Below are positions 53,625-61,008 of a stretch of 64,000 nt of DNA, piece by piece. The DNA is from Kosakonia sacchari SP1. Its GTDB lineage: Bacteria > Pseudomonadota > Gammaproteobacteria > Enterobacterales > Enterobacteriaceae. Made by a program: the position numbers and the translations under genes. Below the pieces are notes generated by a model. That model ran no database searches, was not told the DNA's origin, and worked only from the letters and a program-made list of their open reading frames with translations. Location: the NCBI RefSeq assembly GCF_000300455.3, contig NZ_CP007215.2:3224001-3288000 (forward strand), written 5' to 3'. Position 1 is the stretch's first letter; every line of letters begins with the position of its first letter.

Positions 53625-53660
53625 CATCGCGATAAAAGGTCGACTTTCGTCACGGAAACC

Positions 53661-53675
53661 TTCATTCGAAAGTAA
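53661..53675. promoter_or_regulatory. shared TTCGAA motif, copy 1 (upstream of pflE)
   Basis: Minus strand TTACTTTCGAATGAA, 35 bases upstream of pflE. The same 15 bases occur exactly before ybiV and with one change before ybiU, so a common regulator is likely. Confidence 0.65.
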
Positions 53676-53679
53676 TTTA

Positions 53680-53704
53680 ATCTCCATATGAAATATATGG
53701 AGAT
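53680..53704 (+). promoter_or_regulatory. hairpin covering the pflE ribosome site
   Basis: Perfect ten-base arms ATCTCCATAT/ATATGGAGAT with a five-base loop. The right arm contains the GGAG ribosome site of pflE. Folding would hide it, which suggests translational control or RNA-temperature type behaviour. Confidence 0.6.
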
Positions 53705-53709
53705 AAATT

Positions 53710-54609
53710 ATGATCTTCAACATCCAGCGCTATTCCACTCACGACGGCCCAGGTATTCGTACCGTTGTGTTCCTGAAAGGCTGCTCGCTAAGCTGCCGCT
53801 GGTGCCAGAACCCGGAGAGCCGCAGCCGCACACGGGATCTGCTGTTTGACAACCGTCTGTGCCTTGCCGGGTGTGAGTTATGCCAGCACGCCACGCCAAA
53901 GGTGATTGAACGTGCGGTGAACGGTTTGGTTATCCACCGCGAAAAACTTGATGATACGCAGCTTGATGCGCTCACCGATTGTTGCCCAACGCAGGCGCTG
54001 AGCGTCTGCGGTGAAACACCCGATGTGCGCGATATCATGAATACCGTTTTGCGTGATAAACCCTTTTATGATCGCAGCGGCGGTGGCATCACCCTTTCCG
54101 GCGGCGAGCCGTTTATGAACCCGCAACTGGCGCAGCAACTGCTTCAGGCCAGCCATCAACACGGCATTCATACGGCAGTGGAAACCTGCCTGCATGTGCC
54201 GTGGCGCTATATCGAACCATCCCTGCCCTTTGTGGATCTGTTTCTCGCAGATTTGAAACATGTCGATGATGCCGCCTTTCGCCAGTGGACCGGCGGCTCG
54301 GCAAAACGCGTGCTGGATAACCTAAAACGGCTGGCGCAGGCGGGGAAAAAACTCACTATCCGCGTGCCGCTGATCCCCGGTTTTAATGCCGATAAAGACG
54401 CCATAAGCGCCATTACCGCCTTCGCCGCCGATGAGCTGAAGGTCAGCGATATTCATTTTTTGCCTTACCACACGCTGGGCATGAACAAGTACCACCTGCT
54501 CGGCGAACCCTACACCGCCCCAGAGAAGCCGCTTGATGCCCCGCAACTGCTGGCGTTTGCGCAGGATTGTGCCCGGCGCAAAGGGCTGACGGCGACATTA
54601 CGAGGATAG
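53710..54609 (+). CDS. pflE: glycyl-radical enzyme activase PflE (YbiY)
   Basis: YbiY, 299 residues. Radical-SAM activase with the motif CSLSCRWC near residue 26, which generates the glycyl radical on the neighbouring PflF. Additional cysteines at about 48-62 and 92-104 could bind extra clusters as in other activases. Four bases before pflF. Active in anaerobic conditions. Confidence 0.93.
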
Positions 54610-54613
54610 AACC

Positions 54614-57046
54614 ATGACCACGCTGCAACTCAACACCCTGACCGATCGTATAAAAGCCCATAAAACCGCGCTGGTGCATATTGTGAAGCCACCGGTTTGC
54701 ACCGAGCGTGCCCGTCATTACACGCAGGTTTACCAGCAAAATATGGACAAACCGCTGCCGGTACGCCGCGCGCTGGCGCTGGCGCATCACCTGGCCGAGC
54801 GCACTATCTGGATCAAACATGACGAACTGATTATCGGTAACCAGGCCAGCGAAGTGCGCGCCGCGCCGATCTTCCCGGAATACACCGTTTCATGGATCGA
54901 AAAAGAGATCGACGCGCTCGCAGACCGCCCCGGTGCTGGCTTTGCGGTTAGCGAACAGAACAAACACGTGCTGCATGAGATCTGCCCGTGGTGGCGCGGC
55001 CAGACGGTGCAGGATCGCTGTTACGGTATGTTTACCGACGAACAAAAAGCGCTGCTGGAAACCGGCATTATTAAAGCCGAAGGCAACATGACGTCTGGCG
55101 ACGCGCACCTGGCGGTGAACTTCCCGCTGCTGCTGGAATTGGGTCTCGACGGGCTGCGCCACAAAGTGGATGAGCGCCGGACACGCATCAACCTGACGGT
55201 GCTCAACGATCTGCATGGCGATCAGTTCTTAAAAGCGATTGATATCGTGCTGGAAGCCGTCAGCCTGCATATTGAACGTTTTGCCGATCTGGCACGCCAG
55301 ATGGCCGGGGAAGAGACGCGGCAAAACCGCCGCGATGAGTTGCTGGCGATGGCGGAAAATTGCCTGATTATCGCCCACGAACCGCCGCGTACCTTCTGGC
55401 AGGCATTGCAACTTTGCTACTTTATCCAGCTGATTTTGCAGATTGAATCCAATGGGCATTCGGTCTCTTTTGGACGCATGGATCAGTATTTGTATCCGTA
55501 CTATCGCCGCGATGTTGAACTGCACCAGTCGCTGCCCCGCGAACAGGCCATTGAGCTGCTGCACAGTTGCTGGCTGAAACTGCTGGAAGTGAACAAAATT
55601 CGCTCCGGCTCGCATTCGAAAGCCTCGGCGGGCAGCCCGCTGTATCAGAACGTCACCATCGGCGGTCAACAGTGGCATAACGGTGAAGCGCGCGATGCGG
55701 TTAACCCGCTCTCTTACGCGATTCTGGAATCCTGCGGACGCCTGCGTTCCACCCAGCCGAACCTGAGCGTGCGTTACCACGCCGGCATGAGCAACGACTT
55801 TCTCGACGCCTGCGTGCAGGTGATCCGCTGCGGCTTCGGCATGCCCGCGTTCAATAACGATGAAATTGTTATTCCGGAATTTATCAAACTCGGTGTCGAA
55901 CCCGCGGACGCCTACGATTACGCGGCCATTGGCTGCATTGAAACCGCCGTTGGCGGCAAATGGGGCTACCGCTGCACCGGCATGAGTTTTATCAATTTTG
56001 CCCGCGTGATGCTGGCGGCGCTGGAAGGTGGTCGCGATGCCACCAGCGGCAAAATCTTTCTGCCGCAAACCCAGGCGCTGTCGGCGGGTAATTTCAACAC
56101 GTTCGATGAGGTCATGCACGCCTGGGACCGACAGATTCGTTATTACACCCGTAAATCGATTGAGATTGAGTATGTGGTCGACACCATGCTGGAAGAGAAC
56201 GTGCCGGATATTCTCTGCTCCGCGCTGGTCGATGACTGCATTGAGCGGGCGAAGAGCATTAAACAAGGCGGCGCGAAGTATGACTGGGTATCCGGCTTGC
56301 AGGTGGGGATTGCCAACCTGGGTAACAGCCTCGCGGCGGTGAAAAAGCTGGTCTTTGACCAGGGTGTTATCGGGCAACAACAACTGGCACAGGCGCTGGC
56401 AGAGGATTTCGACGGTCTGACGCAGGAACAGTTGCGTCAGCGGCTGGTCAACAGCGCACCGAAATACGGCAACGACGATGACAGCGTGGATACGCTGCTG
56501 GTGCGTGCCTATCAAACCTATATTGATGAGCTGAAGCAGTATCACAATCCGCGTTACGGTCGCGGCCCGATCGGCGGTAATTACTACGCCGGAACCTCGT
56601 CTATTTCCGCGAACGTGCCGTTTGGCGCAGCAACCATGGCAACACCGGATGGTCGCAAAGCGCATACGCCGCTGGCAGAGGGTGCAAGCCCGGCGTCCGG
56701 CACCGATCATCTGGGGCCGACGGCGGTGATAAGTTCCGTGGGTAAATTGCCGGTGGAAGCGATTCTCGGTGGCGTGTTGCTGAACCAGAAACTGAATCCG
56801 TCGACGCTGGAAAATGAGAGCGATAAGCAAAAGCTGATGGTGCTGCTGCGCACGTTCTTCGAGGTGCATAAAGGCTGGCATATTCAGTACAACATTGTGT
56901 CGCGCGAAACGCTGCTTGAGGCGAAGAAACACCCGGATCAGTATCGCGATTTGGTGGTGCGCGTCGCCGGTTATTCGGCGTTCTTCACCGCCCTGTCGCC
57001 AGATGCACAGGACGACATTATCGCCCGCACTGAACATACCTTATAA
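54614..57046 (+). CDS. pflF: glycyl-radical enzyme PflF (YbiW)
   Basis: YbiW, 810 residues. The catalytic cysteine is in AAIGCIETAVGG near residue 443, and the glycyl radical site is RVAGYSAFF near residue 786. The GCIE motif is the dehydratase-type active site rather than the CC of pyruvate formate-lyase, so the old name is misleading. A recent report, as I recall, assigns related proteins to 1,5-anhydroglucitol-6-phosphate cleavage; not verified here. fsaA, its usual neighbour, is missing. Confidence 0.93.
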   Translation: MTTLQLNTLTDRIKAHKTALVHIVKPPVCTERARHYTQVYQQNMDKPLPVRRALALAHHLAERTIWIKHDELIIGNQASEVRAAPIFPEYTVSWIEKEIDALADRPGAGFAVSEQNKHVLHEICPWWRGQTVQDRCYGMFTDEQKALLETGIIKAEGNMTSGDAHLAVNFPLLLELGLDGLRHKVDERRTRINLTVLNDLHGDQFLKAIDIVLEAVSLHIERFADLARQMAGEETRQNRRDELLAMAENCLIIAHEPPRTFWQALQLCYFIQLILQIESNGHSVSFGRMDQYLYPYYRRDVELHQSLPREQAIELLHSCWLKLLEVNKIRSGSHSKASAGSPLYQNVTIGGQQWHNGEARDAVNPLSYAILESCGRLRSTQPNLSVRYHAGMSNDFLDACVQVIRCGFGMPAFNNDEIVIPEFIKLGVEPADAYDYAAIGCIETAVGGKWGYRCTGMSFINFARVMLAALEGGRDATSGKIFLPQTQALSAGNFNTFDEVMHAWDRQIRYYTRKSIEIEYVVDTMLEENVPDILCSALVDDCIERAKSIKQGGAKYDWVSGLQVGIANLGNSLAAVKKLVFDQGVIGQQQLAQALAEDFDGLTQEQLRQRLVNSAPKYGNDDDSVDTLLVRAYQTYIDELKQYHNPRYGRGPIGGNYYAGTSSISANVPFGAATMATPDGRKAHTPLAEGASPASGTDHLGPTAVISSVGKLPVEAILGGVLLNQKLNPSTLENESDKQKLMVLLRTFFEVHKGWHIQYNIVSRETLLEAKKHPDQYRDLVVRVAGYSAFFTALSPDAQDDIIARTEHTL

Positions 57047-57054
57047 AACGATGG

Positions 57055-57077
57055 CCGGGCTTCCCCGCAAAGCCCGG
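57055..57077 (+). terminator. terminator after pflF
   Basis: CCGGGCTT/AAGCCCGG arms with a seven-base loop, nine bases past the stop. Confidence 0.75.
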
Positions 57078-57168
57078 TCTACTTTTCGTCTGCCGAAAAC
57101 AGAAGCTCCATCAGTTACTTTCCAGCCCCACTCCTGCAACCCAAAATGACTTTTTCGCTTTTCCGAGC

Positions 57169-57299
57169 TGTTTAACCTATGGATTTCGGATTGCAGGAAG
57201 GCGGCAAGGCGGTAAGTCCCCGGGAGCTTACATCAGTAAGTGACCGGGGTGCGGCGCCGCAGCTAACGCACCTGCGGTTCGAAAGACGACGGTTAAACA
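57169..57299. repeat. ERIC element
   Basis: About 131 bases with perfect nine-base terminal inverted repeats TGTTTAACC/GGTTAAACA. The inside follows the ERIC consensus: TTGCAGGAAGGCGGCAAG, then CCCCGGGAGCTTACAT, then AGTAAGTGACCGGGGTG, then CTAACGCACCTGCGG. It lies in the 365-base gap between pflF and ybiV and can fold as RNA. Confidence 0.92.
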
Positions 57300-57324
57300 T
57301 CTACCCTGAGAAAAGACGACAGAT

Positions 57325-57339
57325 TTACTTTCGAATGAA
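57325..57339. promoter_or_regulatory. shared TTCGAA motif, copy 2 (upstream of ybiV)
   Basis: TTACTTTCGAATGAA, identical to copy 1 in the other orientation, 72 bases upstream of the ybiV start. Confidence 0.65.
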
Positions 57340-57411
57340 ATAAAATTTGTGCTTCCCCTCACATTATCTCTAGAATGTTTCTCGTCGCAGTTACATTCAG
57401 GAGTTTTATGT

Positions 57412-58227
57412 ATGACCGTCAAAGTTATCGTTACCGATATGGACGGAACCTTCCTTGATGACGCCAAGCAGTACGATCGCACGCGATTTTTGGCGCAATT
57501 CGAGCAGCTTCGTCAGCGGAATATTGAGTTCGTTGTCGCCAGTGGCAACCAGTATTACCAGCTGATCTCCTTCTTCCCGGAGCTGAAAGAGACCATTTCG
57601 TTCGTCGCGGAAAACGGCGCGCTGGTGTATGAGCACGGTCAACAGTTGTTCCACGGTGAGCTGACCCGCCACGAAGCGCAAGTGGTGATTGGCGAACTGT
57701 TAAAAGACAGCAGCCTCAATTTTGTTGCCTGCGGCCTGGAAAGCGCGTACGTAAGCGAAAACGCCCCGGCAGAGTTCGTCGATCTGATGTCGAAACACTA
57801 TTACCGTTTAAAGCCGGTGCGCGATTTTCAGCACATTGACGATACCTTGTTCAAGTTTTCGTTGAACTTGCCGGACAGCGACATCCCGCAACTGATCGAC
57901 GCTCTGCATGTCTCGCTCGACGGCATCATGAAGCCGGTCACCAGCGGCTTTGGTTTTGTCGATTTGATAATCCCGGGTCTGCATAAAGCCAACGGCATTA
58001 CGCGTCTGCTTAAACGCTGGGGCATCTCACCGCAACAGTGCGTCACCATTGGCGACAGCGGTAACGACGCGGAAATGCTGCGCATGACCGATTTATCGTT
58101 CGCCATGGGCAACGCCAGCGACGCCATTAAATCCATTGCCCGTCATCAGACCGATGATAATAACCACCAGGGCGCGCTGAATGTGATTCAGGCCGTGCTT
58201 GATAACACCGCACCATTCAATCACTGA
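57412..58227 (+). CDS. ybiV: HAD-family sugar phosphatase YbiV
   Basis: YbiV (SupH), 271 residues. Cof-type HAD phosphatase with DMDGTF near residue 9 as nucleophile motif and [10 protein letters not shown] near 214. It acts on sugar phosphates in E. coli. CAGGAG precedes the chosen ATG; the frame is open 21 codons upstream. Confidence 0.94.
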
Positions 58228-58233
58228 TCCCTC

Positions 58234-58253
58234 GCCGGAGCGCCCGCTCCGGC
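58234..58253 (+). terminator. terminator after ybiV
   Basis: GCCGGAGC/GCTCCGGC stem with GCCC loop, then CGTTCTT. Confidence 0.7.
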
Positions 58254-58350
58254 CGTTCTTGTGGCTACTTTTCCGCTTTGTGCTCCGCATCAAGTTTTTA
58301 AACTTGCATTAACTTATTTTTAACTTATTTTATCACTTGTAAGTAAAATA

Positions 58351-58364
58351 ACTTTCGAATGAAA
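58351..58364. promoter_or_regulatory. shared TTCGAA motif, copy 3 (upstream of ybiU)
   Basis: ACTTTCGAATGAAA, same core as the two other copies. Here the flanks give a full dyad CTTTC-GAAT-GAAAG. It ends 17 bases before the ybiU start, so it would block initiation if bound. Confidence 0.65.
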
Positions 58365-58380
58365 GAATGCGAGGTTCAAC

Positions 58381-59640
58381 ATGGCTTTTACCAGTGAAAC
58401 GCTGCCCATCGATCACAAAGCATCGATCCGTCAGATGAAACAGCAACTGCGTGCGCAGATCGGCGATGTACAGCAGGTATTTAACCGCCTGAGTGAGCAG
58501 ATTGCCGCTCGCGTAGCCGATATTAATGCCCTTAAAGCTCAAGGCAAATCCGTGTGGCCACAAATTGCCTACAGCGACATTGCGCAAGGCAAGGTCAGCG
58601 AGGCGCAGCGGGCGCTGATCAAGCGGCGCGGTTGTGCTGTCATTAAGGGGCATTTCCCGCGTGAGCAGGCGCTGGACTGGGATCGCTCCATGCTGGATTA
58701 TCTCGACCAGAACCATTTTGATGAGGTGTACAAAGGGCCTGGCGACAGCTTCTTTGGCTCGCTGGAGGCCTCGCGCCCGGAAATCTACCCTATTTACTGG
58801 TCGCAGGCGCAGATGCAGGCGCGCCAGAGTAAGGAAATGGCCGCCGTGCAAGCCTTCCTCAACCGCCTGTGGCGCTTCGAAAGTGAAGGCCAGCAGTGGT
58901 TTGACCCGGATGTGAGCGTTATCTACCCGGATCGTATCCGCCGCCGCCTGCCGGGAACCACCTCAAAAGGCCTCGGCGCACATACGGATTCCGGCGCGCT
59001 GGAGCGCTGGCTTCTGCCCGCTTACCAGCGTGTGTTTGCCAGCGTGTTTAGCGGCAAATTTGATGAATATGACCCGTGGAACGCGGCGCACCGCACCGAG
59101 GTGGAAGAGTACACGGTGGATAACACCACCAAATGTTCGGTGTTCCGCACCTTTCAGGGCTGGACGGCGTTGTCGGATATGATCCCCGGCCAGGGGTTGC
59201 TGCACGTGGTGCCGATCCCGGAAGCGATGGCATATATACTGCTGCGCCCATTGCTGGACGATGTGCCGGAAGATGAATTGTGCGGCGTGGCGCCAGGGCG
59301 GGTATTACCGGTTTCGGAGAAGTGGCATCCGCTGCTGATGGAAGCCCTGAGCAGCATTCCGGCGCTGGAAGCCGGAGATTCCGTGTGGTGGCACTGCGAT
59401 GTGATCCACTCGGTTGCGCCGGTGGAAAACCAGCAAGGCTGGGGCAATGTGATGTACATTCCCGCCGCGCCGCTGTGCGCGAAAAACCTCGCGTATGCGC
59501 GCAAAGTGAAAGTGGCGCTTGAGCAAGGCGCTTCGCCGGGCGATTTCCCGCGTGAGAACTACGAAAGCGACTGGTCAGGCCGCTTTACGCTGGACGACCT
59601 GAATATTCATGGTAAGCGCGCGCTGGGTATTGAAGTTTAA
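58381..59640 (+). CDS. ybiU: DUF1479 protein YbiU, probable Fe(II)/2OG dioxygenase
   Basis: YbiU, 419 residues, DUF1479 family with a double-stranded beta-helix fold. The HTDSGALERW region (near residue 201) and the later H in CDVIHSVAPVENQQ (near 343) are the likely iron ligands HxD...H. It is thought to be a 2-oxoglutarate oxygenase with unknown substrate. GAGG lies before the ATG. Its stop overlaps the LacI gene tail to tail. Confidence 0.93.
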   Translation: MAFTSETLPIDHKASIRQMKQQLRAQIGDVQQVFNRLSEQIAARVADINALKAQGKSVWPQIAYSDIAQGKVSEAQRALIKRRGCAVIKGHFPREQALDWDRSMLDYLDQNHFDEVYKGPGDSFFGSLEASRPEIYPIYWSQAQMQARQSKEMAAVQAFLNRLWRFESEGQQWFDPDVSVIYPDRIRRRLPGTTSKGLGAHTDSGALERWLLPAYQRVFASVFSGKFDEYDPWNAAHRTEVEEYTVDNTTKCSVFRTFQGWTALSDMIPGQGLLHVVPIPEAMAYILLRPLLDDVPEDELCGVAPGRVLPVSEKWHPLLMEALSSIPALEAGDSVWWHCDVIHSVAPVENQQGWGNVMYIPAAPLCAKNLAYARKVKVALEQGASPGDFPRENYESDWSGRFTLDDLNIHGKRALGIEV

Positions 59641-60710
59641 GCATCGTACAACCCTTCACGCTCCACGGCGGTACGTTGTTGTCCCGGACGTATCCGCCGT
59701 ACCGATTCGCGCACCGCAAGCGTGCCGTTGAGTAACAGCGAACCGGTGGTGGCCTGCGGGCGGATCAAGCGCTGTTGCAGCAGGTGTACCGCCTCTACAC
59801 CCAGTTCATCACGCGGGACATGCACTGCGGTGAGCGGAACATCCTGGATCGCCGCCAGGTTAAACGCATCAATGCTCATCACCGACACATCCTGCGGTAC
59901 GCGCAGCCCTCGCTGCTGGAGCGCATGAACCGTGCCTTCCGCCATAAAATCGCCACCGACGAGAAACGCGGTAGGCGGTGATTTATGCGCCGGATCATCA
60001 AGCCACTCCCCTACCCGCATCCCCGCTTCTTTGGCACTAAAACTGGGAACGGTGATCAGATCCCGCTTACTTTGAAAACGCAGATTGCGCCGCTGCCAGG
60101 CCTCTTTTATGCCCGCAAGGCGCAGATCCATGGTGTAGCGGCGCAGACACATCACATTCACCACCTCGCGGTGGCCCATATCAAAGAGATAATTGGCAGC
60201 AAACTCGCCGATCGTGCGGTGATCCGGCGCGATGGAAGGCAAGCGCATACGCCCGTCACGGCAGTTGATTAACACGCAGGGTTTACCCATATCGGCCGCC
60301 AGGTCATGAATGTGGGGATCATCAATGCCCAGCAGGATCGCCGCCTGGGTTTCCGGTGCGTTCATGCGCGCGAGAAATTCGTTGGCGTCGCTGTCCAGCT
60401 CTTCCAGTGCGCAGTAGCGCAGCCGCACTTCATGGGGTGCCAACGCTTTGTTAATGCTCTGGATCACACGGTAATAGAAGATATCGGAGCGCTCATCAAA
60501 GGCCCGCTGCGGTGCGAAAACAGTCAGGTTATTCAGAAGCAGTCGCCCGGCGGCAATCCCCTCCATCACCCCCAACTCACGTGCGCAGGCCAGCACTGCG
60601 GTACGCGCTTTTTCACTGGTGTTGGCTTTACCTGCCAGCACACGGGAAACCGTGCTGGTCGACAGGTTGGTGCGCAGGGCAATTTCGTTGATTTTGAGCT
60701 TTTTATCCAT
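59637..60710 (-). CDS. LacI-family transcriptional regulator
   Basis: A 357-residue LacI-type repressor. The helix-turn-helix and hinge (LKINEIALRTNLSTSTVSRVL) are followed by a periplasmic-binding-like sensor domain (from about residue 60). It is divergent from the MFS and GH31 genes, which it probably controls. Dyads with TTTC/GAAA arms lie just before its start (60740-60765). Confidence 0.88.
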   Translation of the reverse strand: MDKKLKINEIALRTNLSTSTVSRVLAGKANTSEKARTAVLACARELGVMEGIAAGRLLLNNLTVFAPQRAFDERSDIFYYRVIQSINKALAPHEVRLRYCALEELDSDANEFLARMNAPETQAAILLGIDDPHIHDLAADMGKPCVLINCRDGRMRLPSIAPDHRTIGEFAANYLFDMGHREVVNVMCLRRYTMDLRLAGIKEAWQRRNLRFQSKRDLITVPSFSAKEAGMRVGEWLDDPAHKSPPTAFLVGGDFMAEGTVHALQQRGLRVPQDVSVMSIDAFNLAAIQDVPLTAVHVPRDELGVEAVHLLQQRLIRPQATTGSLLLNGTLAVRESVRRIRPGQQRTAVEREGLYDA

Positions 60711-61008
60711 TCTGTGATCTTGCTCCGTTTCCGAAATGGGAAAATTTTCATGAATCGAAAAGCCTGATATTCATGGCATGAATATGAGTTTGCCGCATGT
60801 CGCCGCTGATTGATGAGAATCCTTGCACAAAATCCACTTTAGCTGCCGATTTTTCTCGCCTAACGTAAACGTGTCATACAACTTCCATACTAGTTGTAGG
60901 AACAATAACCAAAAAAACGCAGATAAATCATCACGCAAACCTGTGCGGTATAACAACTCCGCAAGAGTTTGCCCCGACTTCCCTACAAGAAGATATGCGG
61001 AGAAAAGA
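60711..61008. promoter_or_regulatory. divergent control region between LacI and MFS genes
   Basis: About 300 bases. Two imperfect TTTC/GAAA dyads lie near the LacI gene (around 60728-60762). A clean dyad TACAACT, eight bases, AGTTGTA lies at 60877-60898, nearer the transporter. No gene is supported here. GGAG lies at the MFS start. Confidence 0.55.

Follow-up and report, generated by a model that had tools for sequence, protein, structure and literature searches.

Three adjacent transcription units in Kosakonia sacchari SP1 carry nearly the same short sequence upstream of their first genes, and the question this raises is which regulator, if any, reads that sequence and what the genes it unites have in common. 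The window (the whole stretch of DNA that was analyzed, 64,000 nucleotides) contains the following genes at this locus:

53710..54609, plus strand: pflE (ybiY), glycyl-radical activating enzyme (TIGR02494)
54614..57046, plus strand: ybiW (pflF), glycyl radical enzyme
57412..58227, plus strand: ybiV, HAD-family sugar phosphatase (start ATG 57412)
58381..59640, plus strand: ybiU, DUF1479/Gig2-like protein (PF07350)
59637..60710, minus strand: LacI-family regulator, which we do not take to be the protein acting at the motif

The product of YbiW, 1-deoxyfructose-6-phosphate, is then acted on by FsaA. In E. coli, YbiW is reported to form it by cleaving 1,5-anhydroglucitol-6-phosphate, anaerobically (review PMC12441222, citing Ma et al.). 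In the window fsaA is absent beside pflE. The same genome (G000) has a second fructose-6-phosphate aldolase gene (G000:C1:4755584, 71%), and its 3.7-kb locus holds no copy of the operator described below within four mismatches.

A 16-bp dyad upstream of three adjacent units

The sequence-only reading had drawn attention to a 15-base motif, TTACTTTCGAATGAA, before pflE, ybiV and ybiU, and the same positions were recovered here: two exact copies lie at 53661-53675 (minus strand) and 57325-57339 (plus strand) and a third, with a single mismatch, at 58349-58363 (plus strand), with the starts of pflE (53710), ybiV (57412) and ybiU (58381) downstream of them. Its claim that chance is a very unlikely cause is borne out, as three matches with up to one mismatch compare with 0.01 expected, and none of 100 dinucleotide shuffles of the window reached that number. 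With up to three mismatches there is a weak excess (four matches against 1.77 expected), attained by 10 of the 100 shuffles. A scan for consensus promoters found four against 3.4 expected and so carries no information.

The 15-mer is the core of a 16-bp dyad, ACTTTCGAATGAAAGT (ACTTTC-GAAT-GAAAGT), and this longer form gives the better description of the element. In the complete 4.90-Mb genome the 15-mer is present at two exact, two one-mismatch and five two-mismatch places (three for the reversed control), and the 16-mer, with up to two mismatches, at six places against one for its reversed control; the motif is therefore not scattered over the genome. The three copies at the locus, described as sites of the DeoR-family regulator YciT for reasons given below, are:

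53658..53673, minus strand: candidate YciT-type operator ACTTTCGAATGAAGGT before pflE-ybiW, differing from the 16-bp consensus at one position
57327..57342, plus strand: candidate YciT-type operator ACTTTCGAATGAAATA, two mismatches to the consensus, upstream of ybiV
58351..58366, plus strand: candidate YciT-type operator ACTTTCGAATGAAAGA, one mismatch to the consensus, upstream of ybiU

Conservation of the candidate operator across the family

We compared the locus across the family using 149 genomes drawn from a larger group; pflE is present in 47 of them, and together with E. coli MG1655 these provide 48 loci. The dyad was scored within 220 nt upstream of each gene, leaving out upstream regions shorter than 120 nt and the row for moeB, which arose artificially from negative coordinates in truncated loci. 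With up to two mismatches it is present upstream of pflE in 44 of the 48 loci and upstream of ybiU in 27 of 28, and with up to three mismatches upstream of ybiV in 17 of 25; with simple shuffles the fraction of trials satisfying the same limits was 0 for pflE, 0 for ybiU and 0.008 for ybiV, and three mismatches were reached for these genes in at most 0.012. As a control, the dyad is found in none of 48 ybiW upstream regions with up to three mismatches. In MG1655 there are two mismatches before ybiV, two before ybiU and none in the copy between ybiY and fsaA. A further 80 named loci, chosen as nearest by pflE and coming in part from the same species, give a similar result, with the dyad at up to two mismatches in 79 of 80 pflE and 65 of 66 ybiU upstream regions and at up to three in 62 of 70 ybiV upstream regions.

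There are several features of these alignments. First, the TTTC-N4-GAAA letters are the most constant and the outer letters vary the most. Second, of the four pflE loci departing by more than two mismatches, three retain TTTC/CTTC-N4-GAA as a dyad in the slot beside an FNR-type box (see below). Third, the ybiV site is the weakest, with at least four mismatches in eight of 25 loci, and at one locus (L093, from G040) pflE is present and the operator absent; both of these count against assignment of the sites to YciT.

YciT as the probable regulator

The homologues of pflE, ybiV and ybiU are bound by YciT in E. coli, and here a dyad site lies upstream of each of the three. ChIP-exo in E. coli maps YciT to the regions preceding ybiUVWY and fsaA, and deletion of yciT alters expression of ybiV, ybiY and fsaA (PMC8464067); a 2025 preprint reports enrichment of YciT on the ybiYW promoter by DNA chromatography and mass spectrometry (PMC12132413), and Reg-Seq reports that YciT binds at other places in the E. 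coli genome (PMC7567609). The YciT motif is described as palindromic in the text of PMC8464067. The K. sacchari genome encodes a YciT at G000:C1:2258828-2259565 that is 80% identical to the E. coli protein and scores 502 bits against NCBIfam NF040887.2 (cutoff 450), and the YciT proteins inspected have SEVTIRQDL, with at most slight variation, as their recognition helix.

The distribution of yciT was examined in the 93 genomes of at least 3.0 Mb, classed from rounded sizes, with presence set at E≤1e-40 for yciT, 1e-60 for the LacI protein and 1e-90 for pflE. Both yciT and pflE are present in 47 genomes, yciT only in 12, pflE only in none and neither in 34 (Fisher p = 1e-15, its significance overstated by the relatedness of the genomes). 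For yciT and the 16-mer with up to one mismatch the corresponding numbers are 42, 17, 2 and 32. Because the genomes are related, Fisher values such as these are not independent tests.

The gene order also associates yciT with this pathway. Of the 59 genomes with yciT, at least 21 have it beside pathway genes, adjoining ybiW in 15 (in the same direction in 14), ybiU in three (G130, G075 and G031) and fsaA in three (G040, G145 and G032). Two of these genomes, G031 and G145, have no pflE match, but the operator is retained in both, along with yciT and either ybiU or fsaA. One genome, G017, has two YciT-like genes (L070 and C1:2851503), one of which (58%) is beside ybiW.

The sites, their conservation and spacing, the co-occurrence and the gene neighborhood are what the present analysis contributes, and we conclude with high confidence that YciT is the protein for which the motif serves as operator; it would bind before pflE-ybiW, ybiV and ybiU and most likely repress them. 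This conservation, taken with the published YciT binding in E. coli, lends strong support to the earlier proposal that one regulator unites the three units. Two further observations weigh on the other side. First, the 16-mer with up to one mismatch occurs in the absence of yciT in five of 47 genomes (G056, G086 and the small G039, G044 and G124). Second, YciT has been tied mainly to osmolarity, and only 23 of its 49 ChIP-exo sites are in regulatory regions (PMC8464067).

In K. sacchari itself, YciT is expected to bind these sites and to act as a repressor. YciT would repress the three units, and in most relatives fsaA too, and would cease to do so once one of the pathway's sugar phosphates builds up; such a sugar phosphate would be the presumed inducer. 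Only one of 23 yciT upstream regions carries the site, and the 6-kb yciT locus of K. sacchari has none within four mismatches; control of yciT by its own product is therefore not general.

FNR- and CRP-type boxes beside the candidate operators

The operators before pflE and ybiV are accompanied by a second element at a near-constant distance, and in the window these are:

53640..53653, plus strand: degraded FNR-type box TCGACTTTCGTCAC, 4 nt from the pflE operator, where relatives have TTGA-N6-TCAA
57348..57363, plus strand: CRP-type box TGTGCTTCCCCTCACA, on the downstream side of the ybiV operator at a distance of 5 nt

An FNR-type box stands exactly 4 nt upstream of the pflE operator in 41 of the 48 loci and in 76 of the 80 named loci; such a box with up to two mismatches, at any place, occurs in 0.108 of shuffled upstream regions. 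This fixed arrangement is seen in relatives, whereas in the window itself the box at that place is degraded. Upstream of ybiV a CRP-type box is located 4–6 nt downstream of the operator in 22 of 25 promoters and 4–5 nt downstream in 69 of 70 named loci, and a box of this type with up to two mismatches appears somewhere in 0.062 of shuffled upstream regions. We infer that FNR and CRP use these boxes. In relatives, the box at pflE would couple the operator to the absence of oxygen, and that 4–5 nt downstream at ybiV would couple it to carbon status.

The pflE promoters of relatives resemble class II FNR-dependent promoters in that TTGA-N6-TCAA and the operator are separated by a nearly constant distance; the window differs, its own box being degraded. 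By arithmetic on the sequence, setting the FNR box at -41.5 puts the center of the operator at -22.5 and a TTTAAT at -12 to -7; a bound repressor would therefore sit between the -35 and -10 regions. For E. coli ybiYW, relative to a predicted start, YciT is placed near -5 and an activator that the report leaves unidentified near -20, and the start site is active anaerobically (PMC12132413). The order and rough distance of activator and YciT in that report agree with those of FNR box and operator here; the start differs.

Alternative explanations

One alternative is that another DeoR-family paralogue reads the site, instead of YciT or jointly with it. In G086, which is without yciT, an exact operator (L112 2716-2731) is flanked by a transketolase-like gene and, 300 nt away, by the gene of a different DeoR-family regulator, and G056, also without yciT, carries the yjfP site described in the next section; related proteins may therefore share this operator, as the G086 copy suggests. 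A second dyad, TTTTCGAACGAAAA, is present near the exact operator in L112. Nonetheless, yciT accompanies pflE in all 47 pflE-bearing genomes and two methods have detected YciT at these promoters in E. coli (PMC8464067, PMC12132413), and it seems unlikely that a paralogue accounts for the sites. Among other members of the DeoR family, AgaR, SrlR, UlaR and GlpR resemble YciT in that YciT matches their NCBIfam models, with scores below the cutoffs, and they differ from it in their target genes. Their operators are dyads with TTTC/GAAA-like parts. In a 12-kb stretch of E. coli containing ulaR and ulaG-ulaA (L130), the sole match within four mismatches is the yjfP site.

The sequence-only reading had favored the adjacent LacI-family protein (59637-60710) as the regulator, and there are grounds for considering it: its gene adjoins ybiU in the window, an orthologue is present in 49 of the 80 named pflE loci, the motif is an inverted repeat, and one lacI upstream region (L058) comes within four mismatches of the dyad. 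However, none of 17 lacI upstream regions has the dyad within three mismatches (one has it at four and four at five), nor does any of 14 upstream regions of the adjacent MFS gene. Moreover, only 36 of the 47 pflE-bearing genomes have a LacI orthologue as against 47 with yciT, and the remaining 11 (eight with no match at E≤1e-60 and three with only matches of at most 46% identity) all keep the pflE operator with up to two mismatches. E. coli K-12 likewise keeps the sites and has no LacI gene between ybiU and ybiT. It is because its own and the MFS promoters are without the site, and because the operator persists in these 11 genomes, that we reject the LacI protein as regulator of the motif and regard this explanation as very improbable.

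The genome counts point the same way. Among the 93 genomes, the LacI protein and pflE are both present in 36, the LacI protein only in 13, pflE only in 11 and neither in 33; for the LacI protein and the 16-mer the numbers are 29, 20, 15 and 29, such that an orthologue is absent from 15 of the 44 genomes of at least 3 Mb with the 16-mer, counting as absent four whose best matches are of at most 46% identity. (Those weak matches, in G023, G056, G081 and G125, are not counted; with them the LacI protein would be in 39 of 47 pflE genomes, and a few orthologues may be missed, since no more than 13 candidates were scored in each genome.)

The related TTTC/GAAA dyads that had been noticed in the LacI promoter prove to be another element. 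GGGAAAATTTTCAT, perhaps the dyad that was meant, is only partly conserved in the lacI-mfs region, and the best-conserved element there (14 loci) is ACAACTTCCATACTAGTTGT, not the motif. This 20-bp partial inverted repeat, located in the window within the lacI-mfs intergenic region (60711-61008), is perhaps the site of a different regulator. The gene following the MFS gene beside lacI is, judged by eye, a putative glycosidase gene.

Finally, recent duplication of promoter DNA with no protein binding might explain three similar sites near one another, but conservation of the sites over many genera, their near-constant spacing to FNR-type and CRP-type boxes and the published YciT binding in E. coli (PMC8464067) make this barely credible.

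Further sites outside the locus

Among the sites elsewhere in the K. sacchari genome, a near-perfect YciT-type site is located in the intergenic region between yjfP (esterase) and bsmA, at G000:C1:4351793-4351808 (L106 2794-2809). Its 12-bp core, with up to one mismatch, is present upstream of yjfP in 23 of 55 yciT-bearing genomes as against one of 19 without yciT (Fisher 0.0036, relatedness not corrected); the count covers 74 of the 75 genomes with yjfP, with G028 left out as it has no start and the G050 upstream region being only 152 nt. The MG1655 yjfP site has an intact core and mismatches at three of 16 positions. From these sequences, yjfP/bsmA is a probable additional target of YciT. 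We found no paper on YciT with yjfP or bsmA, and the site may already stand in the full ChIP-exo site list of PMC8464067.

A strong YciT-type site is also present at G000:C1:2494641-2494656 (L105 3642-3657), preceding a gene for a FixJ-like response regulator by about 180 bp. A sensor kinase gene adjoins the latter, and a CRP-like sequence, TTTGTGATAAATCACT, lies beside the YciT-type site. The FixJ-like gene is present in 17 of 149 genomes; of 15 loci read, only two have a site near the gene, both from the genus (K. sacchari itself and G072), and we do not regard it as a general target. The GNAT gene across from this site was likewise discarded as a target, being absent there in L109. The sixth genomic site (4479120, two mismatches) is at the junction of two ORFs on the same strand, overlapping the 5′ end of one of them from within, and probably reflects chance.

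Other locations are recorded from relatives. The 16-mer with one mismatch precedes a DMSO-reductase-like molybdopterin enzyme gene in two genera (L113 2486-2501 and L118 2592-2607), and one of the two genomes, G056, is without yciT. In G108 a ybiU-like gene (PF07350) apart from the pflE locus has a near-perfect operator of its own (L115 2735-2750).

A leader dyad and altered FNR box within Kosakonia

The pflE leader of the window contains an additional element:

53680..53704, no strand assigned: perfect 25-bp dyad ATCTCCATATGAAATATATGGAGAT, between the operator and the pflE start, covering the Shine-Dalgarno sequence

The pflE leader is predicted to fold well as RNA, at -13.5 kcal/mol (z -2.95), and the dyad may act either as a DNA element or as an RNA hairpin. 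Whether the 5′ arm of the dyad is transcribed would depend on the start site, which from the FNR geometry would fall inside the dyad and from the start predicted for E. coli (PMC12132413) upstream of it.

Across 15 genomes of the genus the pflE operator is retained in all 15 with up to two mismatches, and the elements around it fall into two arrangements. Nine genomes have a similar leader dyad, built around ATCTCCAT-N9-ATGGAGAT, and in eight of these the FNR box is degraded to TCGA-N6-TCAC or GCGA-N6-TCAC; the ninth, K. quasisacchari, has an intact box at 6 nt. In the other six, TTGA-N6-TCAA stands at 4 nt and a strong leader dyad is lacking. The gene fsaA is beside pflE in five of the six genomes without a strong dyad and in none of the nine with it (one of these loci being short). 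One locus, L231, looks intermediate, with the box kept, fsaA absent and a weak dyad. With up to one mismatch the dyad is found solely at pflE, once each in eight of 14 genus genomes searched; two-mismatch matches elsewhere resemble chance, and the reversed control has some too. Compared by pflE, the named relatives closest to the window are K. quasisacchari, K. pseudosacchari and K. sacchari, the record of the window itself possibly having been left out.

Implications

The E. coli K-12 YciT regulon is similar to that described here in its target genes, in having the same dyad at homologous places and in its regulator, whose orthologue is 80% identical; it differs in that fsaA is missing beside pflE in the window and that binding here is predicted. 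A shared regulator for these genes is thus already known from E. coli and is seen here in Kosakonia. What is apparently new is the FNR box at 4 nt at pflE, the CRP box at 4–5 nt at ybiV, the probable yjfP/bsmA target, and the change within Kosakonia. The fullest account we can offer has YciT as a dedicated repressor of an anaerobic anhydro-sugar pathway, with rigid FNR and CRP spacing and with yjfP/bsmA in its regulon, and has the oxygen input of part of Kosakonia naturally rewired around a fixed operator, with loss of fsaA, loss or shift of the FNR input, and gain of the 25-bp element; this is tentative, and taken as a whole we give it somewhat less than even credence.

A little-studied regulator, YciT, thereby gains a clear biological setting, and since at least 21 genomes have yciT beside genes of the glycyl-radical route that is reported to act on 1,5-anhydroglucitol in E. 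coli, the sugar phosphates of that pathway are the place to look for its inducer. The near-fixed spacing of the FNR and CRP boxes constitutes a testable logic of signal integration, and the Kosakonia promoters provide a small natural experiment in regulatory rewiring.
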